Source: Marinobacter bohaiensis
GTDB taxonomy: Bacteria > Pseudomonadota > Gammaproteobacteria > Pseudomonadales > Oleiphilaceae
Assembly (NCBI RefSeq): GCF_003258515.1
Contig: NZ_QGEH01000001.1
Location: 2,356,001 to 2,420,000 of the forward strand
Reading direction: 5' to 3'
DNA length: 64,000 nt
A model generated the notes under the pieces. That model searched no databases and was not told the DNA's origin. It saw only the letters and a list, made by a program, of their open reading frames with translations. This document shows, piece after piece, positions 17,541 to 27,030 of this stretch. How positions within the stretch are numbered: the stretch's first letter is position 1; the number at the start of each line of letters is the position of its first letter. Both the position numbers and the translations under genes were made by a program.

Positions 17541-19010
17541 ATGCGACGCGCGATAGATGATCTGCTCGGAGCCTACGACAAGCTCATCATGGACCCGGTC
17601 CACGGCGGGATTCCCCTGTACCGCCACGAGATCCAGGTAATCGATCATCCCCTCTTCCAGCGCCTGCGCAACATCTGCCAGAACGACATCCTGAGCCTGG
17701 TTTTCCCCGGCGCCACGCATTCCCGTTTCCTGCACAGCATCGGCGTGATGCACGTGGGCAGCCGTATGTTCCGCGCCATGATCAATGCCTACCTGCGCGA
17801 ACGCCAGCTGAGCAGCCAGGTGGAGCTGACCCTGACCCAGCTCGACGCCCTGGATTACCTGGCCAAGACCATCCGGCTGGCGTGTCTGCTGCATGACAGC
17901 GGCCACTCCAGCTTCTCCCACCAGTTCACCCAGGCGCGTCGCATCAAGGATCTCATGGCCCGCCCCGACCGGTTCCAGAACCTGTGGCACGGCGTTGACA
18001 CCAGCACACTGTACGACGCCGTTCCCGACGAACTGGAGCACGAACACTACTCCGTCCGGGTCGCCTGGGATGTGCTGGAGAGCGTGGATCTGGCTGAGGC
18101 CGGGCTGCACCGGGAAGACGTCCTGGGCATCATGGAAACCACCAACGTGCAGCCGTCGGACACTTTCTGCCGTCACGCCGAGACGTTCTGGTCGTTCATT
18201 GCCGGGGCCGACGCCAACGCCGGCGCCCTGGAATCCGCCTCGACGCCGCGACTGGTGATGGATCTGCTGTCGTCGATCGTGTCCGGGGAGATCGATGCGG
18301 ACCGGGCCGACTACATGCTGCGTGACGGCTTCCACTCGTCGGTCACCATCGGCGGCTTCAACCTGGACCACCTGTTGAGCAACCTGCGCTTCGGCTGGAC
18401 GGTGGATGAGCCCTGGCTCGGACTGGCCATCACACAGAAAGGCCTGGGGGCGCTGGAGGATTTCGTCTACAGCCGCTACCAGATGTACCGCAAGGTCTAC
18501 GCCCACAAAACGGCGCTGGGCTTCGACTGGCTGCTGCGGGAAGCCATCAACGAAGTGCTGGAGGATCCGGACACGTTCGACTGGGTCGACCTGTGCCTGA
18601 GCCGGATGGACTATTTTGCCGAGCTGACCGACAACTTCTTCTGGGAGGCATTCCGGCGCAAGGCGCGCCAGCAGCCGCACAGCTATTCCAAATGCATCGT
18701 CGACCGCGTCAAGCTTGAGCATCTGGATACCCGCGAAAACCTGGAGAACGACCGGCTGAACAATCACTGTGCCGAACTGGCCACGATGCTCGAAACCGAT
18801 CCCGCCGAAGTGGTGACTTGCACCATGCGCGCCCGCTTCTCCAACATCCAGGACAATTTCAACGGCATCAAGGTGCTGATGCGCGAGCCGGTGAGCCGCA
18901 AGCGTCACCTCAAGCGCATCACCGACGTGAGCGCGTTTTTCTCCAAGTTCGGCGACGGCACCATCACCCACTTCTACCGCCGCCCGGCGCTGCTGCGCGA
19001 CGACGCCTAG
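17541..19010 (+). CDS. HD-domain phosphohydrolase (SAMHD1/dGTPase-like)
   Basis: 489 residues. HD metal site: R62/H65 in THSRFLHSIG, H118-D119 in LACLLHDSGHSSFSH and the downstream aspartate in GEIDADRADYMLRD. The N-terminal MDPVHGGIPLYRHEIQVIDH is typical of YdhJ/SAMHD1-type HD hydrolases, which act on dNTPs or related nucleotides in the cytosol. Substrate not determinable from sequence. GGAG lies 11 nt upstream of the ATG. Its 3' end overlaps the convergent renalase-like gene by 4 bp. Confidence 0.87.
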   Translation: MRRAIDDLLGAYDKLIMDPVHGGIPLYRHEIQVIDHPLFQRLRNICQNDILSLVFPGATHSRFLHSIGVMHVGSRMFRAMINAYLRERQLSSQVELTLTQLDALDYLAKTIRLACLLHDSGHSSFSHQFTQARRIKDLMARPDRFQNLWHGVDTSTLYDAVPDELEHEHYSVRVAWDVLESVDLAEAGLHREDVLGIMETTNVQPSDTFCRHAETFWSFIAGADANAGALESASTPRLVMDLLSSIVSGEIDADRADYMLRDGFHSSVTIGGFNLDHLLSNLRFGWTVDEPWLGLAITQKGLGALEDFVYSRYQMYRKVYAHKTALGFDWLLREAINEVLEDPDTFDWVDLCLSRMDYFAELTDNFFWEAFRRKARQQPHSYSKCIVDRVKLEHLDTRENLENDRLNNHCAELATMLETDPAEVVTCTMRARFSNIQDNFNGIKVLMREPVSRKRHLKRITDVSAFFSKFGDGTITHFYRRPALLRDDA

Positions 19011-20020
19011 CGCATCGCCCGTACCAGGGCTTCGGCGCTCTCGAAGGCGCCTTCGACGCGACCGCCCTGCAACCAGTCGCCGCACAGCCCGAGGCGCTGG
19101 GCATCATCCCAGACGTAGCCGGGCGGCCTGGAACCGGCGACGGTGCGGGCATACAGCCAGCGATGAGTCAGTGTCTGAAACGGGGCAGTCGCGACGCCGG
19201 CCACCTCTGCAAACGCCGCCAACAGGCGCTCGGTCACCCATTGCGGGTCCGCGTCCTGGTGGCGTTCCGACCAGTCGCTGCGGGCGTGCAACACCCACCA
19301 CACGTCATCCCCGGCGCGTCCGGGTTTGCTGCTGTTGTTGGCGGCCCAGTCCAGTACCGGGTGACGCACGCCGAGACCGTCCGCATCGGTACAGGGGTTA
19401 TCGGCAAAACAGGCGGCCACCGCCCAGCAGGCCGCCAGCGGGTGATCGTCGAACAGCCCCGGCGCGCCGTCCAGGTCCAGCCCGGAATCCGACAGCAAGG
19501 TGCGCGTCTGCGCCGGTGGCGCCGTGACCAGCACGGCGTCGAACGGGCCATGCCGGCCGCCGGCGGTGTCTTCCAACAGCCATTGCCCGGCATCGCGGGT
19601 CAATCCGGCCACGCGGGTTTCCGCCCGCACGTCGAGATGCTGCGACAGCCGGCGCGAGATCGCGGTCATTCGCGGCACGCCCACGTAGCGCTCGGTTGCG
19701 TGGAAATTCGCCCATTGCCCCTGATCACCCTGGTGGCGCAGGCGCCCTCTCCACTCGGCGTAGCTGTCCGGTCCGGCAAAATCGTCCAGAAACTGGCGGA
19801 AAACAGGATTGCGCACCGTGAAGTACTGGGCGCCAATGTCCACCGCGCCGTCCCCGGTGCGTTTGGCGGCGAGGCGGCCGCCCGGGCCACGGCTCTTCTC
19901 GAACAGGGTGACCGCCTTGCCGGCCTGCTGCAGAAAAATTCCGGCGCTCAGGCCACTCAGACCTGAACCGACGATGGCAATCGACCGTATGGATTCTTTG
20001 ACTGACTGGTGCTTTTTCAT
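19007..20020 (-). CDS. Renalase-like FAD-dependent amine oxidase family protein
   Basis: 337 residues. N-terminal FAD dinucleotide-binding motif AIVGSGLSGLSAG, followed by LFEKSRGPGGRLAAKR and DIGAQYFTVRN, and a C-terminal GLCGDWLQGGRVEGAFESAE that closes the FAD site. This pattern is that of bacterial renalase-like proteins, which oxidise aberrant dihydronicotinamide isomers. The N-terminal 13 residues are polar, so it is probably cytosolic. A sigma-70 promoter is visible at 20056-20084. It is divergent from the membrane-lipid operon, sharing a 118-bp spacer. Confidence 0.8.
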   Translation of the reverse strand: MKKHQSVKESIRSIAIVGSGLSGLSAGIFLQQAGKAVTLFEKSRGPGGRLAAKRTGDGAVDIGAQYFTVRNPVFRQFLDDFAGPDSYAEWRGRLRHQGDQGQWANFHATERYVGVPRMTAISRRLSQHLDVRAETRVAGLTRDAGQWLLEDTAGGRHGPFDAVLVTAPPAQTRTLLSDSGLDLDGAPGLFDDHPLAACWAVAACFADNPCTDADGLGVRHPVLDWAANNSSKPGRAGDDVWWVLHARSDWSERHQDADPQWVTERLLAAFAEVAGVATAPFQTLTHRWLYARTVAGSRPPGYVWDDAQRLGLCGDWLQGGRVEGAFESAEALVRAMR

Positions 20021-20055
20021 TTCAGGGCAGGTGCATCCAAATGTTTGGTTTTAAA

Positions 20056-20138: not shown

Positions 20139-21104
20139 ATGACCCGAGTTCAGCATTGGCTATACAGCATTCAGAGGTGGTTCGATTCCGAGGCCCATTC
20201 GGATCAGTTGGACCGCCAGTCCCGCTCCTTCAACCTGGTCCGGGTGCTGCCTTTCGTGGCGCTGCACCTGGCGTGCCTGCTGGCCTTTTTTACCGGCGTC
20301 AGCGGATTCGCGCTGGCCTTTGCGGTGGGCTTTTTCCTGGTCCGCATGTTCGCGATCACCGGTTTCTATCATCGCTACTTCTCTCACAAAACGTTCAAAA
20401 CCAGCCGTGGCTGGCAGCTGATATTCGCCATCATGGGCGCCAGCGCCGCACAGCGGGGCCCGCTGTGGTGGGCCGCACACCACCGCCACCACCACCAGCA
20501 TTCCGACGAGCCTGAGGATCTGCATTCGCCGCAACACGGCGGCTTCTGGTGGTCTCACATCGGCTGGTTCACCTGCGACGCCGGCTTTGCCATGAACGAG
20601 AAACGCGTCGGTGACTGGCTCAAGTTTCCAGAACTGCGCTTTATCAACCGCTTCGACGCGCTGGTGCCCGCCTGCTGTCTGGCCCTGATCTACCTGCTGG
20701 GCGAAGCGCTTGCCCTCTGGGCACCAGGGCTCGGAACCAACGGTCCGCAGTTGGTCGTGTGGGGCTTCTTCATCTCAACGGTCGTGCTGTTCCATGCCAC
20801 CGTGTCGATCAATTCTCTGGCCCATGTCTGGGGCAGTCGCCGCTTCGAAACCGAGGACGACAGCCGAAATAACTTCTGGCTGGCGCTGATCACCCTGGGC
20901 GAGGGCTGGCACAACAATCACCATCGCTGGCCACGCTCCGCGCGTCAGGGCTTCCGCTGGTACGAGATTGACGTGACCTACTATGTCCTATGGCTGATGG
21001 AAAAGGCGGGCATCATCCACGATCTCAACCGTCTGCCCGAAGAAGTGCACCAGGAAGCCATCGACATTGACCAGGCCCGACGCCAAGAAAGGGAGGCCGT
21101 ATGA
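20139..21104 (+). CDS. Membrane fatty-acid desaturase (delta-9 acyl-CoA/acyl-lipid type)
   Basis: 321 residues, four membrane segments in two hairpins (around LVRVLPFVALHLACLLAFFT and LVPACCLALIYLLGEALALW). The three histidine boxes of di-iron desaturases are complete: HRYFSH, HRHHHQHSD and HNNHH. It introduces a cis double bond into a saturated acyl chain using O2 and reduced electron carriers. First gene of an eight-gene overlapping cluster; its ATGA stop/start overlaps the next gene. It would supply monounsaturated acyl chains to the cyclopropane-synthase-like enzyme further down. Confidence 0.92.
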   Translation: MTRVQHWLYSIQRWFDSEAHSDQLDRQSRSFNLVRVLPFVALHLACLLAFFTGVSGFALAFAVGFFLVRMFAITGFYHRYFSHKTFKTSRGWQLIFAIMGASAAQRGPLWWAAHHRHHHQHSDEPEDLHSPQHGGFWWSHIGWFTCDAGFAMNEKRVGDWLKFPELRFINRFDALVPACCLALIYLLGEALALWAPGLGTNGPQLVVWGFFISTVVLFHATVSINSLAHVWGSRRFETEDDSRNNFWLALITLGEGWHNNHHRWPRSARQGFRWYEIDVTYYVLWLMEKAGIIHDLNRLPEEVHQEAIDIDQARRQEREAV

Positions 21105-21535
21105 ACACGCCCCGGGACAACTGCCTTGAGCGCTTCCAGCGCCTTTTCAACCAGATGTCGGCCCATCAGCTCGGCGAGCTGGAGGCAGTCTACGACCGTG
21201 ATGTGGCGTTCACCGACCCATTCGTCACGCTGTACGGCCTGGACGCACTGGGCGACTATTTCACCGGCGCCTACGCCAACGTCATTGAGTGTCGCTTCGA
21301 GTTCGACGGGGCCGTCGATACCGGCGACCAGGTCGCCCTGCCCTGGATCATGACCCTGCGCCACAAACGGATTCGCCGCGGCGAGCCGGTACAGGTCCAG
21401 GGCATCAGCCATTTGAAACTGGGCAGTGACCGTATCCTATATCACCGGGACTACTTTGACGCCGGCCAACTGCTCTACGAGAACCTGCCGCTGCTCGGTT
21501 CGGCGGTACGCTGGATCCGGAAGTACGCCGCATGA
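21101..21535 (+). CDS. NTF2-like (SnoaL-fold) small protein
   Basis: 144 residues, single NTF2-like cone domain: FQRLFNQMSAHQLGELEAVY, DVAFTDPFVTLYGLDALGDY and a closing GSDRILYHRDYFDAGQLLYE. These folds act as small-molecule isomerases/hydratases or as accessory binding proteins. It overlaps both neighbours by ATGA, so its expression is fixed to the operon. NTF2-like proteins recur in clusters with SDR, DUF1365 and CFA-like genes, but their role there is not established. Confidence 0.82.
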   Translation: MNTPRDNCLERFQRLFNQMSAHQLGELEAVYDRDVAFTDPFVTLYGLDALGDYFTGAYANVIECRFEFDGAVDTGDQVALPWIMTLRHKRIRRGEPVQVQGISHLKLGSDRILYHRDYFDAGQLLYENLPLLGSAVRWIRKYAA

Positions 21536-22326
21536 ACCACGTGAGACTGCAACACCCCACGTCGATCTGGCTGACCGGCGCCTCGTCGGGCATTGGCGAG
21601 CACCTGGCCTTGCAGCTGCTGCACGACAGCCATCACCTCATCATCACCGGACGCCGACGGGAGCCGCTCGACGCCATGGCGGAAGGCTTTCCCGGCCAGG
21701 TCACGGTTGCGCCTGCGGACACCACTGACCGCGACGCCCTGTCGGCGCTGGGCGACGTCTTTACCCAACAGGCGCCGCTGCAGATGGCCATCCTCAACGC
21801 CGGCACCTGCGAGTACCTGGACGTTCAGGCCTTCGACGCGAGTGTGGTCGAGCACAACGTGGCGATTAACTTCAGCGGCACGGTCCGCAGCGTCGAAGCG
21901 GTACTGCCGGCGCTCCGCGCGGCCCGACGCCAGGGACTGCCCGCCCGGATCGTGATCGTCAGTTCTTCGGCCTGGTGGTTCCCCTTCGGCCGCGCGGAAG
22001 GTTATGGCGCGTCCAAAGCCGCGCTGACCTACTTTGCCCACTCACTGCGAGCCGACCTGGCTCACGAAGGGATTGAGGTGACCGTGGTGTCTCCCGGCTT
22101 CGTACGCACACCGTTGACCGACCGTAACGACTTCCCGATGCCCGGCCTGATCGAAGCCGACGAAGCCGCATCCCGAATCATGCACGGCCTGCGCAAAGGC
22201 CATCGGGAGATCCATTTCCCGAAACGTTTCACCCTCACCCTCAAGCTACTGGGCGCCCTCCCGCAGCGCTGGATCGATGCGCTGGCCGCCCGTATGGCAA
22301 GACCGAACAAGGAAGACACTCCATGA
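21532..22326 (+). CDS. Short-chain dehydrogenase/reductase
   Basis: 264 residues. Classical SDR: cofactor loop TGASSGIGEHLAL, NAG motif AILNAGTCEY, active-site serine in IVIVSSSAWWFPFG and the YxxxK motif YGASK, followed by TVVSPGFVRTPL. It catalyses NAD(P)-dependent oxidation/reduction of a hydroxyl or keto group. In this operon the substrate may be an acyl or lipid intermediate; that is inference from context only. Overlaps the genes on either side by 4 bp. Confidence 0.9.
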   Translation: MNHVRLQHPTSIWLTGASSGIGEHLALQLLHDSHHLIITGRRREPLDAMAEGFPGQVTVAPADTTDRDALSALGDVFTQQAPLQMAILNAGTCEYLDVQAFDASVVEHNVAINFSGTVRSVEAVLPALRAARRQGLPARIVIVSSSAWWFPFGRAEGYGASKAALTYFAHSLRADLAHEGIEVTVVSPGFVRTPLTDRNDFPMPGLIEADEAASRIMHGLRKGHREIHFPKRFTLTLKLLGALPQRWIDALAARMARPNKEDTP

Positions 22327-23591
22327 CGCAGCGCCAGCGTGTAGCGGTTATCGGCGGCGGCGTGTCCGGGCTCACCAGCGCCTGGCTCCTGGCCGATCAT
22401 CACGATGTGACGCTCTTTGAAGCCGCCGACTACGCCGGCGGCCACACCCATACCCGACCAGTCGAACTGGGCGGACGCACCTGGCCGGTCAACACCGGTT
22501 TCATCGTGTTCAACGACTGGACCTACCCCAACTTCATCAAGCTGATGGAACGGTTGGGCGTCGTCCACGAGGAAAGCTCGATGAGCTTTAGCGTCGACTG
22601 TGACCGGAGCGGCCTGGAATACAACGGCACCAGCCTCGACACCCTGTTCGCCCAGCGCTGGAACCTGCTCAATCCGCGATTCCTGCGGATGATCCTGGAG
22701 ATCCTGCGTTTCAACAAGCAGACCCGCTCGGATCTGGCCAAAGGACGCATCGGCGACGACGAAACCCTGGGCAGCTATCTCAATCGCCACCGTTTCTCGC
22801 GCTACTTCCGCGACTACTACATTGTGCCCATGGGCGCGGCCATCTGGTCGGCGCCGGAGATCACGCTGGAGCAGTTCCCGCTGCGCTTTTTCCTGCAGTT
22901 CTTCGAGAACCACGGCATGCTGTCGGTGGACGACCGCCCCACCTGGCGCGTCCTCAGCGGCGGCTCCGCCAGCTACGTCACGCGCATGATGGACAAACTG
23001 GGGCCGCTGACCCGGCTCAATTCACCGGTCAGTTCGGTCAAGCGCCATTCGGACCGGGTAGAGATTACCGTCAACGGTAACGTGGAGACCTTCGACCAGG
23101 TAATCCTGGCCTGCCACAGCGACCAGGCCCTCACCATGCTGGACGACGCCAGCGACGCGGAAGCGGAGATCCTGGGTGCCATCGAGTATCAGGACAACGA
23201 TGTGGTGCTGCACACCGACGCGTCACTGCTGCCCACCGCCCGCAAAGCCTGGGCCGCCTGGAACTACTTCATCCCGCAGCACGCCACCGAACCGGTGTCG
23301 GTGACCTACAACATGAACATCCTGCAGAACTTCCACGACGCTCCGGAAACCTTCTGCGTCACGCTGAACCGGACCGATGACATCGATCCGGAGCGCATCA
23401 TCGAGCGATTCCGCTATGCCCATCCGGTGTTCACCCTGGACGCCGTGGCCGGGCAGCAACGTTACGAGGAGATCGGCGGGACCAACCGGACCCACTTCTG
23501 CGGCGCTTACTGGTTCAACGGCTTCCATGAGGACGGGGTGCGCAGCGCGGTGCGGGTTGCCAACGCGTTTGGCGCGGAGTTGGCGGCATGA
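22323..23591 (+). CDS. FAD-dependent amine-oxidase-fold oxidoreductase (desaturase/isomerase-like)
   Basis: 422 residues. FAD motif VAVIGGGVSGLTSAWLL, then FEAADYAGGHTHTRPVEL, and a C-terminal GAYWFNGFHEDGVRSA that completes the FAD pocket. This subgroup of flavoproteins is regularly found next to DUF1365 and CFA-synthase-like proteins and is grouped with phytoene-desaturase-like enzymes. In the Rhodobacter furan fatty acid pathway a dehydrogenation step acts on a methylated acyl chain; whether this protein does so here is unknown. Overlaps SDR and DUF1365 genes by ATGA. Confidence 0.88.
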   Translation: MTQRQRVAVIGGGVSGLTSAWLLADHHDVTLFEAADYAGGHTHTRPVELGGRTWPVNTGFIVFNDWTYPNFIKLMERLGVVHEESSMSFSVDCDRSGLEYNGTSLDTLFAQRWNLLNPRFLRMILEILRFNKQTRSDLAKGRIGDDETLGSYLNRHRFSRYFRDYYIVPMGAAIWSAPEITLEQFPLRFFLQFFENHGMLSVDDRPTWRVLSGGSASYVTRMMDKLGPLTRLNSPVSSVKRHSDRVEITVNGNVETFDQVILACHSDQALTMLDDASDAEAEILGAIEYQDNDVVLHTDASLLPTARKAWAAWNYFIPQHATEPVSVTYNMNILQNFHDAPETFCVTLNRTDDIDPERIIERFRYAHPVFTLDAVAGQQRYEEIGGTNRTHFCGAYWFNGFHEDGVRSAVRVANAFGAELAA

Positions 23592-24478
23592 CCGACCGGG
23601 CGCTGCGCAGTCACTGGCTCGAAGGCACCATACGCCATCGCCGCATGACGCCGGTGCGACACGTCTTCAGCTACGACACCGGCATGCTGGCCCTGGACCT
23701 CGACGACTGGTCGCGCATCGGCGACTGCAGCCGCCTGCTCTCCCGGGAGCGCTTCAACTGGCTGTCGCTGAAGCGCAGCGACTACTTCGCCCCCGAGCGC
23801 AGCGACCTCAAGCAGGCCATCGCCGACCAGGTGGAGCAGGCCACCGGCTGGCGTCCGACCGGCCGAATCGAGCTGATAACCCATCCGCGCTACCTGGGTT
23901 ACGTGTTCAACCCGGTCAGTTTCTATTGCTGTTACGACGACACCGACGATCCAACCGCCGGCGCGCTGCCGCGGGTCGTGGCCGCCCAGATCACCAACAC
24001 GCCCTGGCACGAACGCCACCTGTACTGCCTCACCGGCGCGCCCGTTACCACCACAGACGCCGGTTGGCGCAGCCAGCGCTACAGCTTCAGCAAACGCTTC
24101 CACGTCTCTCCGTTCAACCCGATGGATCAGGAGTACCGCTGGCTGTTCAGCGCCTGCGACGATCAGTTGCGCATCCACATGAACGTCCTCCGGGAAGGCC
24201 AGAAGGTTTTCGACGCCACCCTGGCGGTCCAACGCACCCCCCTGACACGTATATCCATCAGACGACACGTGCGGCGATTTCCCCTGGAATCGATCAAGGT
24301 GGCAAGCGGCATCTACTGGCACGCGCTTAAGCTTAAAATCAAAGGCGCCGTGTTCCATACGCATCCGGACAAGCTCGCCCCCAACGACCCGGCCCACCGG
24401 CTGGGACACGACGATCAGGGCGAGCGCGTCGATCCCGCAGTACCCGGAACAGGAAAGGTAAGCTCATGGAGAACCTGA
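23588..24478 (+). CDS. DUF1365 family protein
   Basis: 296 residues. DUF1365 hallmarks: GTIRHRRMTPVRHVFSYDTG at the N-terminus, THPRYLGYVFNPVSFYCCYD and VVAAQITNTPWHERHLYCLT. The family always accompanies the flavoprotein and CFA-like methyltransferase seen here, but its biochemical role is unknown to me. No signal peptide; a weakly hydrophobic mid-region could associate with membrane. The last 13 bp overlap the methyltransferase gene. Confidence 0.9.
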   Translation: MTDRALRSHWLEGTIRHRRMTPVRHVFSYDTGMLALDLDDWSRIGDCSRLLSRERFNWLSLKRSDYFAPERSDLKQAIADQVEQATGWRPTGRIELITHPRYLGYVFNPVSFYCCYDDTDDPTAGALPRVVAAQITNTPWHERHLYCLTGAPVTTTDAGWRSQRYSFSKRFHVSPFNPMDQEYRWLFSACDDQLRIHMNVLREGQKVFDATLAVQRTPLTRISIRRHVRRFPLESIKVASGIYWHALKLKIKGAVFHTHPDKLAPNDPAHRLGHDDQGERVDPAVPGTGKVSSWRT

Positions 24479-25716
24479 ACACCCAACAGCAGACGTCCAA
24501 CCGATCGCTCACGTCGGGCCTGGCGCGACGACTGGTTACCGGCCAGTTCGAGCAGCTCAAGGCGGGGACGCTGCGGGTCAGCGAAGCCGGACAACCGGAC
24601 GCGGTCTTCGGCGACGGCGACAGCCAGTATCCGGAGGCGGAAATCCGCATCCACGACGCGTCCACCTGGCGTGATCTGCTCACCGGCGGCAGCATCGGCG
24701 CGGCGGAATCCTACGTGGCCGGGGACTGGACCTCCCCCGACCTGACCGCCCTGCTGCGCTTCTTCACGCGTAACATCGACCGGATGAACGCCTTTGAGGA
24801 CCGGTTCAGCTGGATCAGCAAGCCAGCCCTCAAGGGCCTGCACTGGCTCAACCGCAACAGCCGCACCGGCTCGCGCAAGAACATCGAGGCCCACTACGAC
24901 CTGGGCAACGCCCTGTTCGAAACCTTCCTCGATCCGACGCTGATGTATTCGTCGGCGATCTACCCGGACGAGGCTGCCACGCTGGATGAAGCCGCGGTGT
25001 TCAAGCTGGACCGGATCTGCCGCAAGCTCGACCTGCAGCCGGGCGACCGGGTGCTGGAGATCGGCACCGGCTGGGGCGGTTTTGCCATCCACGCGGCGAC
25101 GCACTACGGCTGCCATGTGACGACCACGACCATCTCCCACGAACAGCACGAGCTGGCCCGCGGGCGCATCGAAGCAAAGGGTCTTTCCGACCGGATCACA
25201 CTCCTGTTCGACGACTATCGCGACCTGACCGGCCAGTACGACAAGCTGGTGTCCATCGAGATGATCGAGGCGGTGGGGCCGCAGTTCCTGGACAGCTACT
25301 TTGCCCAGATCAGCGACCGGCTCAAGCCCGGCGGCGAGGCCCTGATCCAGGCCATCAACATGCCCGAGCAACGCTACGAGCGGGCGCTGCGTAACGTGGA
25401 CTTTATCCAGCGCTACATCTTCCCGGGCAGTTTCATCCCCTCGTTCGGCGCCATGCTGGGCTCCGTCCGCAACGGCACCGAGCTGGTCCTGACGCAGGTG
25501 GAGGACTTTGGCCTGCATTACGCCCGCACCCTCCACGATTGGCGGGAGCGCTTCATGGACGCCCGCCGCCAGATTCGCGAACTGGGTTACGACGACCGCT
25601 TCATTCGCCTGTGGGACTTCTACTTCAGCTACTGTGAAGCGGGTTTCTCGGAGCGTGCCATTGGCGTCGCGCACGTCCAGTTCACCAAACCGGGCAGCTC
25701 ACAGGCCCCACATTAA
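24466..25716 (+). CDS. Cyclopropane-fatty-acid-synthase-like SAM methyltransferase with altered active site
   Basis: 416 residues aligned by eye to E. coli Cfa over LDPTLMYSSAIY, LEIGTGWGGFA, SIEMIEAVGPQFLDSYF, LIQAI and RYIFPGSFIPSF. The SAM loop is present (GTGWGG for GCGWGG). Of the Cfa bicarbonate-site residues, Glu (E268), Ile (I297) and Tyr (Y352) are kept, but the catalytic Cys is Ser (S163 in MYSSAIY versus QYSCAYW) and the His is Gln (Q295 in LIQAI versus LLHTI). The spacing E268-Q295 equals E239-H266 of E. coli. It probably methylates unsaturated phospholipid acyl chains, but may not form a cyclopropane. It acts on membrane lipids. Substitutions are seen directly; altered chemistry is inference. 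Confidence 0.88.
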   Translation: MENLNTQQQTSNRSLTSGLARRLVTGQFEQLKAGTLRVSEAGQPDAVFGDGDSQYPEAEIRIHDASTWRDLLTGGSIGAAESYVAGDWTSPDLTALLRFFTRNIDRMNAFEDRFSWISKPALKGLHWLNRNSRTGSRKNIEAHYDLGNALFETFLDPTLMYSSAIYPDEAATLDEAAVFKLDRICRKLDLQPGDRVLEIGTGWGGFAIHAATHYGCHVTTTTISHEQHELARGRIEAKGLSDRITLLFDDYRDLTGQYDKLVSIEMIEAVGPQFLDSYFAQISDRLKPGGEALIQAINMPEQRYERALRNVDFIQRYIFPGSFIPSFGAMLGSVRNGTELVLTQVEDFGLHYARTLHDWRERFMDARRQIRELGYDDRFIRLWDFYFSYCEAGFSERAIGVAHVQFTKPGSSQAPH

Positions 25717-25720
25717 TCGC

Positions 25721-26263
25721 ATGACTCATCACACCGCCATGATCCGCCACGACTTGCTGCGCAACGTCACCAACTTCGCCCTGTTCCAGGTCGGCTGGTT
25801 CGCCTGCGTGCTGTTCCCGGGTGTCGGCGCGGCGTTGCTGGCGCTGGTCATCGTCGGCGCCCACCTGGCTTTCGTCAGTCAGTCGCGGATCGCGGAGGCG
25901 CGGTTTATCCTGCTGGGCACCGCGGTCGGCTCGTTGCTGGATGGGCTCTGGTTTCGCCTGGACGTCCTGGCCGAGCCGGGCACATTGCCCCTGTGGACGC
26001 CGATCTGGCTGGTCGGCCTGTGGGCCGTGTTCATGACTACCCTGGCCCACTCCCTGGCGTGGGTCGGCGAACGACGCTGGCTGCCCTACGTGCTCGCGCC
26101 CCTGGCCGGGCCCTTCGCCTACTGGAGCGCCACCCGGCTGGGCGATGTGCGCTTCCCGGAAACCCTGCCCAGCCTGATTGCGCTGGCGATCGGCTGGCTC
26201 ATCGTGTTTCCGGCGCTGCTGGCGATCAAGCAGCGTTTTTTCAGGGAGATCACTCCGGCATGA
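25721..26263 (+). CDS. DUF2878 family membrane protein
   Basis: 180 residues with about five or six hydrophobic segments (ALFQVGWFACVLFPGVGAAL, LLGTAVGSLLDGLWF, LVGLWAVFMTTLAHSL, LAPLAGPFAYWSA, LIALAIGWLIVFPALLAI). The pattern matches DUF2878, an inner-membrane family seen beside CFA-like genes. Start at 25721, 4 bp after the methyltransferase stop; an alternative ATG is at 25739 and neither has a strong ribosome site, consistent with coupling. Function unknown. Overlaps the next gene by ATGA. Confidence 0.8.
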   Translation: MTHHTAMIRHDLLRNVTNFALFQVGWFACVLFPGVGAALLALVIVGAHLAFVSQSRIAEARFILLGTAVGSLLDGLWFRLDVLAEPGTLPLWTPIWLVGLWAVFMTTLAHSLAWVGERRWLPYVLAPLAGPFAYWSATRLGDVRFPETLPSLIALAIGWLIVFPALLAIKQRFFREITPA

Positions 26264-27030
26264 AAACAAACAGATTCTGGCTGACGGCCGTCGGATTCGT
26301 CGCGACCTCCGGCGTGTCCGCTGCAACGTTCACCTTCACCGGTACGGCACAAGCCCCGGACCAAAGCGCGCTGTACGAAGAACGCCACACCGTGGAGGGC
26401 ACGTGTGAGGCGGGCCAGTTCCGGCCCCGCGACCACCAGGTCGATTACATCGCCCTCAATGAAAGCCTGGGACCGCGCAACGAGGTCTTCGCGCGCAAGG
26501 ATCTGGAATACGCCTCGGACCCGCTGCGGCCAACCGTCGACTTCACCCAGAGCCCGTTCCAGGAACGCATGCGGATCCGCAACGTCGATGACCGCTTGGC
26601 CAGGATCGACTGGCAGGAATCGTCCGGCGACCGCGTCAACGAGGAGGTCCCGCTGTCGGATAATGCGGTCATCGACGCCGGGTTCGTACACCTGATTCAG
26701 AAGCACTGGGCCGCCCTGAATCAGGGGCGCTCCGTCGACTTCGAATTCCTGGCACCGACCCGGGGCGAGAGCTACCGGTTTGTCGCCGAACCCACCGAAA
26801 GCGACACCCTGGACGCTCACCTCGTCGTGTCGATGCGCCCCAGCCAGATGTTCCTGCGCTGGCTCGTCGACCCCATCCTGCTGGGCTTCGACAGCGAGGG
26901 CCGGATCGTCCGCTACCAGGGCCTGGGCAATATCCGCAAGAATCTGGACGAGAACTATACCATCGACCTGCGTTATCGATACGGCGAGTCGCCCTGCCCG
27001 CTGGTCACCGGCAGCGCCACCGGCGATTGA
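26260..27030 (+). CDS. Secreted protein of unknown function at the end of the lipid operon
   Basis: 256 residues from the ATG at 26260 that overlaps the previous stop. A signal peptide is clear (KTNRFWLTAVGFVATSGVSA, cleavage near SAATF). The mature part looks like a mainly beta periplasmic protein: TFTFTGTAQAPD, VPLSDNAVIDAGFVHLIQKH, LVVSMRPSQMFLRWLVDPIL and YRYGESPCPL. Two cysteines (after EGT and in SPCPL) could form a disulfide. I do not recognise a family. Position suggests a periplasmic partner of the lipid-modifying enzymes. Confidence 0.75.
   Translation: MKTNRFWLTAVGFVATSGVSAATFTFTGTAQAPDQSALYEERHTVEGTCEAGQFRPRDHQVDYIALNESLGPRNEVFARKDLEYASDPLRPTVDFTQSPFQERMRIRNVDDRLARIDWQESSGDRVNEEVPLSDNAVIDAGFVHLIQKHWAALNQGRSVDFEFLAPTRGESYRFVAEPTESDTLDAHLVVSMRPSQMFLRWLVDPILLGFDSEGRIVRYQGLGNIRKNLDENYTIDLRYRYGESPCPLVTGSATGD

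Follow-up and report, generated by a model that had tools for sequence, protein, structure and literature searches.

What does an enzyme of the CMAS family make when the site that holds bicarbonate in its cyclopropane-forming relatives has been altered? The question is raised by a 416-residue protein encoded in the window, the whole 64,000-nucleotide stretch of the Marinobacter bohaiensis genome analyzed here. The protein is recognized by the Pfam CMAS profile (PF02353, 270 bits), and the solved structures nearest to it in sequence are those of the Cfas 6bqc, 5z9o, and 7qos, with a phmmer E-value of 5e-57 against E. coli Cfa (PDB 6bqc). The initial annotation had aligned it by eye to E. coli Cfa and reported a serine (Ser163) for the catalytic cysteine and a glutamine (Gln295) for a histidine, with Glu268, Ile297, and Tyr352 retained and an interval of 27 from Glu268 to Gln295. 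A MAFFT alignment with the E. coli K-12 Cfa, with which phmmer agrees, reproduces all of this to the residue: Ser163 corresponds to Cys139, Glu268 to Glu239, Gln295 to His266, Ile297 to Ile268, and Tyr352 to Tyr317, and the Glu268-to-Gln295 interval is indeed 27. The word “catalytic” for the cysteine was nevertheless too strong, as a 2024 paper (PMC11387697), in the portion available, gives Glu239, His266, and Tyr317 as the bicarbonate ligands of Cfa. In the same portion, the bicarbonate is thought to accept the proton whose loss closes the ring. The ligand set is incomplete in the window protein, which has the Glu and the Tyr and carries Gln295 in place of the His.

The gene closes a run of six genes in the order desaturase-NTF2-SDR-UfaD-UfaO-UfaM, which lie head to tail with overlaps of 4, 4, 4, 4, and 13 bases (Table 1). 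A second gene of the flavin amine-oxidase family (19007-20020, minus strand) is divergent from this operon and bears a weak likeness to UfaD (37% over 78 positions).

Table 1. Genes of the operon and diagnostic codons of ufaM, in window coordinates
Feature	Position	Strand	Evidence or remark
Membrane fatty acid desaturase, first of the overlapping run	20139..21104	+	PF00487
SnoaL/NTF2-like gene	21101..21535	+	PF12680; companion in 6/18 gammaproteobacterial clusters
Short-chain dehydrogenase (SDR)	21532..22326	+	PF00106; companion in 6/18 gammaproteobacterial clusters; 31% to the C. johrii SDR
ufaD-like gene, flavin amine-oxidase family	22323..23591	+	PF01593; 42% to C. johrii UfaD over 427 positions
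ufaO-like DUF1365 gene, 13-base overlap with ufaM	23588..24478	+	PF07103, 1.4e-74; 32% to C. johrii UfaO over 250 positions
ufaM, predicted SAM-dependent fatty acyl methyltransferase, CMAS family	24466..25716	+	ATG start, 416 aa
Ser163 codon (Cfa Cys139)	24952..24954	+	S/A/C/G, variable within the UfaM type
Glu265 codon (Cfa Gly236)	25258..25260	+	Glu in 121/121 UfaM-type, Gly in 67/67 Cfa-type
Glu268 (Cfa Glu239, retained) and Ala269 (Cfa His240) codons	25267..25272	+	Alignment
Gln295 codon (Cfa His266)	25348..25350	+	Gln in 121/121 UfaM-type, His in 67/67 Cfa-type
Asp312 codon (Cfa Pro279)	25399..25401	+	Asp in 121/121 UfaM-type, 3/67 Cfa-type
DUF2878 gene, frequent companion, downstream of ufaM	25721..26263	+	PF11086; start codon at 25721
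Next downstream gene, putative operon member	26260..27030	+	No Pfam/NCBIfam match

As a flavoprotein is encoded two genes upstream of the CMAS protein, a 10-methylene/10-methyl enzyme of the BfaB/TmpB kind might also be considered, with the neighboring flavoprotein as the reductase, and tmp operons have been reported from gammaproteobacteria in the sections available of PMC7791843. However, the tmp units described there consist of two genes with the methyltransferase first and a TmpA that resembles geranylgeranyl reductases, and the bfa genes were chosen for a conserved bicarbonate site, which is altered in the window protein. The window flavoprotein is neither a BfaA nor a geranylgeranyl-reductase-like TmpA; it is a PF01593 protein like UfaD that precedes the methyltransferase gene, with the DUF1365 gene lying between the two. 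This reading is accordingly improbable, and the gene order instead points to the furan fatty acid pathway of UfaM.

In this pathway, according to the parts of PMC7380195 at hand, UfaM converts cis-vaccenate to 11-methyl-12-trans-18:1, and deletion and complementation in R. palustris (ufaD RPA2571, ufaO 2570, and ufaM 2569) show the three genes to be needed and enough for the 9M5 furan fatty acid. The reactions themselves were demonstrated in earlier studies of R. sphaeroides and R. palustris. In Halomonas YLGW01, the ufa genes are consecutive, and the accessible part of PMC12089945 describes an 11-methyl-12-enoate peak upon expression of its ufaM in E. coli. For R. sphaeroides, we used C. johrii (Cereibacter, like R. 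sphaeroides), whose PufM is 100% identical to the query over 304 residues. A search of its genome for CMAS proteins gave a single strong hit, L121, besides four weak and partial ones. Directly upstream of L121 is a DNA photolyase gene; in R. sphaeroides, phrA is RSP_2143, a tag adjoining RSP_2144 (PMC7074977, as far as available). The sole DUF1365 gene of C. johrii comes after a UfaD-like gene and before genes for an MFS protein, a DUF3833 protein (186 aa), and an SDR (245 aa), and lies beside rpoE and chrR. The corresponding parts of the published record give RSP1088 and RSP1087 as 186 and 245 aa (PMC7380195) and place RSP_1090/91 next to rpoE-chrR (PMC7074977). On the basis of the photolyase neighbor, together with a ufaD-ufaO operon fitting RSP1091-1087, we take L121 as the RSP2144 ortholog. 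At the five sites compared above with Cfa, L121 reads S-E-Q-I-Y, identical to the window protein, with which it shares about 40% identity overall; three other named Rhodobacteraceae that were searched have the same five residues.

The gene order UfaD-UfaO-UfaM, the tree (see below), and the five residues shared with the syntenic C. johrii ortholog make it very probable that the window gene encodes UfaM, which catalyzes the initial methylation in the synthesis of furan fatty acids. They also support the suggestion of the initial annotation that the product is a methylated or rearranged acyl chain and that the enzyme is related to those of furan fatty acid synthesis. Its family, operon, orthology, and residue pattern are established here; the kind of enzyme is already known, and the window gene adds another member to it.

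The residue pattern was defined in two nested alignments. The first (n=100) contains the window protein, E. coli Cfa (L038), two further full-length CMAS proteins from the window genome, three plasmid-borne and four Rhodobacteraceae proteins, and 29 loci and 60 chosen rows of a first search; the second (n=197) adds 28 new loci and 60 chosen rows of a second search and nine in-cluster paralogs, the other matches of both searches, mostly weaker or shorter, being left out of the alignments. At the position of Cfa His266, 121 of the 197 sequences have Gln (the UfaM type), 67 have His (the Cfa type), and the nine paralogs likewise have His. With Gln at this site in 121/121 members of one type and 0/67 of the other, the association is not due to chance. 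Three other sites separate the types: site 236 (Glu in 121/121 Gln-type against Gly in 67/67 His-type sequences), site 240 (Ala in 119 and Ser in two against His in 65 and Gln in two), and site 279 (Asp in 121/121 against 3/67). Glu265, Ala269, and Asp312 are hence the strongest extra marks of the UfaM type, and the window protein, with E265, A269, Q295, and D312, shows the UfaM pattern as defined in the present alignment. Site 139 behaves differently: it is Cys in all 67 His-type sequences but Ser in 94, Ala in 17, Cys in nine, and Gly in one of the Gln type. Glu239 and Tyr317 are retained throughout both types. These counts make the His-to-Gln change a rule and the Cys-to-Ser change none, so that of the two bicarbonate-site alterations first proposed, one is fixed and the other optional. 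Likewise, the idea that loss of Cys and His diverts the reaction calls for revision: besides His to Gln, the fixed changes include the overlooked marks Gly to Glu, His to Ala (119/121), and Asp312. As judged from conservation over the 121 Gln-type sequences, no stand-in His or Cys is apparent elsewhere in the window protein: His143, its sole invariant His, shows no variation in the Cfa type either, and Cys390 is its sole near-invariant Cys (99% of the Gln type against 43% of the Cfa type). The initial annotation had reckoned with such a replacement; none was seen among these residues. The in-cluster CMAS paralogs (n=9) also bear Glu at the site of Cfa Gly236.

These comparisons bear on whether the protein could be a true cyclopropane synthase that tolerates Ser and Gln. 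It belongs to the same Pfam family and retains Glu268, Ile297, and Tyr352, and E. coli carrying the Halomonas ufaM also held cyclic fatty acids, but so did the control, already with 11% Cy17:0 (PMC12089945, same part). Against this reading, the protein reaches 285, 267, and 214 bits with the three NCBIfam Cfa profiles, whose cut-offs stand at 600, 400, and 650; both Cys and His are present in all 67 Cfa-type sequences; the gene sits in a ufaD-ufaO operon; and the same genome already has two full-length CMAS proteins (L001 and L002) with the complete Cfa residue set. The initial annotation had named a Cfa with the same Ser and Gln as a finding that would speak against it; no such protein was encountered, all 67 His-type sequences having Cys, although these are, E. 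coli Cfa apart, assigned to the type by sequence. A cyclopropane synthase is hence improbable at this locus, and the UfaM assignment is retained. The complete Cfa set of L001 and L002 suggests that the organism may also make cyclopropane fatty acids.

A residue important in Cfa has been lost, which could be taken to indicate a relic CMAS protein that has no activity or a regulatory role and persists in the operon. However, the reading frame is open and His143, Tyr144, Asp250, Tyr251, Glu268, and Tyr352, which are common to both types, are all retained; moreover, the altered residues are themselves invariant or almost invariant among the 121 sequences, which argues for selection and not decay. 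A relic is the least credible of the readings considered, with hardly any probability left to it. The true Cfa, the BfaB/TmpB type, and the relic were all rejected on the grounds given with each.

The UfaM residue type tracks the pathway across genomes. A UfaO homolog occurs within the fetched stretch of a few kilobases for 88/121 Gln-type sequences, including the window, as against 0/67 of the His type. The 33 Gln-type sequences without UfaO nearby comprise one at a contig end (L016), four from Rhodobacteraceae (L120-L123), two gammaproteobacterial ones (L031 and L032), and 26 from the second search. At the level of gammaproteobacterial genomes, and among the rows fetched, DUF1365 is found in 37/38 with a Gln-type protein and in 0/38 with the His type only. 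The exception, a 1.5-Mb genome (G003), codes for a Gln-type protein (L032) that retains the Cys, without a DUF1365 match; its pathway may have the methyl olefin as the end point. In a tree of 96 rows built by a quick method (54/121 Gln-type, 33/67 His-type, and the nine paralogs), the Gln type, including C. johrii L121, forms one side of a single branch, supported by an SH-aLRT value of 99; two changes are needed to account for the His type. Given this single origin of the Gln group, its association with UfaO represents one old evolutionary event and not many.

To place the operon among its relatives, we took the 20 best-matching gammaproteobacterial clusters, of which 18 have enough upstream DNA and two are cut by contig ends. 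A desaturase 45-58% identical to that of the window stands directly before ufaD in 9/18 (L203-L206, L209, L211, L214, L215, and L220). The NTF2 and SDR genes occur in 6/18, and 3/18 have neither these nor the desaturase; the window has both. The operon desaturase may supply the cis olefin to UfaM, which would suggest that the operon by itself covers the whole way from saturated chains to furan fatty acids. In the available text of PMC7380195, all seven mentions of “desaturase” refer to UfaD or to a cited reference. A second CMAS-family gene (about 310-350 aa) is found near ufaM in 9/20 clusters (L203, L204, L206, L207, L209, L211, L214, L215, and L216) and is absent from the six-gene run of the window itself. 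The L203 paralog, the sole one compared, resembles a coclaurine N-methyltransferase of plants (6gkv, E 9e-64). As to regulation, the window genome has an rpoE-chrR pair preceded by TGATCC-N16-CGTAA. The best candidate for a ChrR/sigma-E site before the desaturase is GCATCC-N17-CGTATA near 20033, which is off by two bases and in spacing; the pattern ATCC-N17-CGTA is present at three places in the window. On Azospirillum and Mesorhizobium plasmids (L035 and L036), ufaD-ufaO-ufaM genes lie beside genes for a sigma factor and ChrR, with TGATC-type sites before ufaD.

How might the altered site yield a methyl olefin? We propose that methyl transfer by UfaM would leave a carbocation on the neighboring carbon and that Glu265, three residues before Glu268, would act as the base in place of bicarbonate. 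It would abstract a proton from the chain at the carbon past the cation to give a trans olefin next to the methyl branch, with no ring; UfaD and UfaO would then form a diene and insert oxygen to produce the methyl furan fatty acid. That the proton would leave the chain and not the methyl group is suggested by the product, 11-methyl-12-trans-18:1. The replacement of bicarbonate by Glu265 as the base has, in our estimate, slightly less than an even chance of being correct. For the window copy, we infer the activity, substrate position, and chain length, and with them the product, from sequence.

Parallels among mycobacterial enzymes of the family bear on this proposal. In the alignment with Hma, Glu265 falls on Glu146 and Gln295 on Gln176 (the number 176 being counted from the alignment). 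Hma/MmaA4 (PDB 2fk7) is, like UfaM, a CMAS protein without cyclopropanation that has this Glu and Gln at the bicarbonate site; unlike UfaM, it retains His150, has Ser178 where UfaM has Ile, and acts on mycolic acids to give a hydroxyl product. The excerpted account in PMC8708032 has it hydrate the double bond and end in a hydroxyl, with a water in the crystals bridging bound fragments to Glu146, Glu149, and Ser178. MmaA1 (PDB 8raq) agrees with UfaM in having Glu in place of Cfa Gly236 and Ala in place of His240, but it retains the His, carries Asp at the site of Glu239 and Leu at that of Ile268, and likewise acts on mycolic acids; according to the consulted part of PMC5660069, it introduces an allylic methyl branch. 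In the alignments compared, Hma, MmaA1, and UfaM all have the Glu, which Cfa, CmaA1, and MmaA2 lack. Since MmaA1 retains the His, its loss is not necessary for a methyl olefin product. At these sites, UmaA carries Gly and His and shares only the Ala with UfaM; it is credited with a trans double bond and a vicinal methyl in the introduction of PMC8708032, and a passage of PMC5660069 cites 10-methylstearate from it. If the former credit is correct, the Glu is not necessary either, as UmaA has Gly. That the in-cluster paralogs bear the Glu too, the one compared being similar to coclaurine N-methyltransferase, likewise speaks against the proposal. Taken together, we offer the tentative and rather less likely generalization that UfaM works without bicarbonate, with Glu265 as base and Gln295 for the His; that the Gly-to-Glu change arose separately in non-cyclopropanating mycobacterial enzymes (with His to Gln in Hma), so that whether a ring, a methyl olefin, or a methyl alcohol results would depend largely on a single active-site position; and that part of the gammaproteobacteria, including the window organism, add their own desaturase to form the cis olefin for UfaM. 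In the literature searched, no statement was found of the UfaM Glu/Gln pattern or its match with Hma/MmaA1, though the first report of UfaM lies outside this coverage and may contain it; the word “bicarbonate” is absent from the available text of PMC7380195.

The residue pattern offers a simple means of distinguishing furan fatty acid methyltransferases from cyclopropane synthases by sequence. In the plasmid records examined, the UfaM-type genes are named “cyclopropane-fatty-acyl-phospholipid synthase family protein”. The pattern also makes the product choice of CMAS-family enzymes testable via a few residue changes.

Compared with known systems, the window UfaM has its family, Glu239, Ile268, and Tyr317 in common with E. 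coli Cfa (PDB 6bqc) and departs from it by Cys139 to Ser, Gly236 to Glu, His240 to Ala, His266 to Gln, and Pro279 to Asp. With BfaB/TmpB, set apart here by their published descriptions in part, it shares the CMAS family and a flavoprotein partner, but the partner family and the operon are different. It is closest to the characterized UfaM (RSP2144, via its C. johrii ortholog), being of the same family and clade with the same Ser/Glu/Gln/Ile/Tyr set. R. palustris, with the ufaD-ufaO-ufaM order of the window, and Halomonas YLGW01, with the three genes consecutive, are likened to it by gene arrangement. Unlike these known UfaM systems, the window operon additionally contains desaturase, NTF2-like, and SDR genes; the ufaD-ufaO operon of C. 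johrii ends in an SDR gene too, with its ufaM (L121) situated apart, by the photolyase gene.
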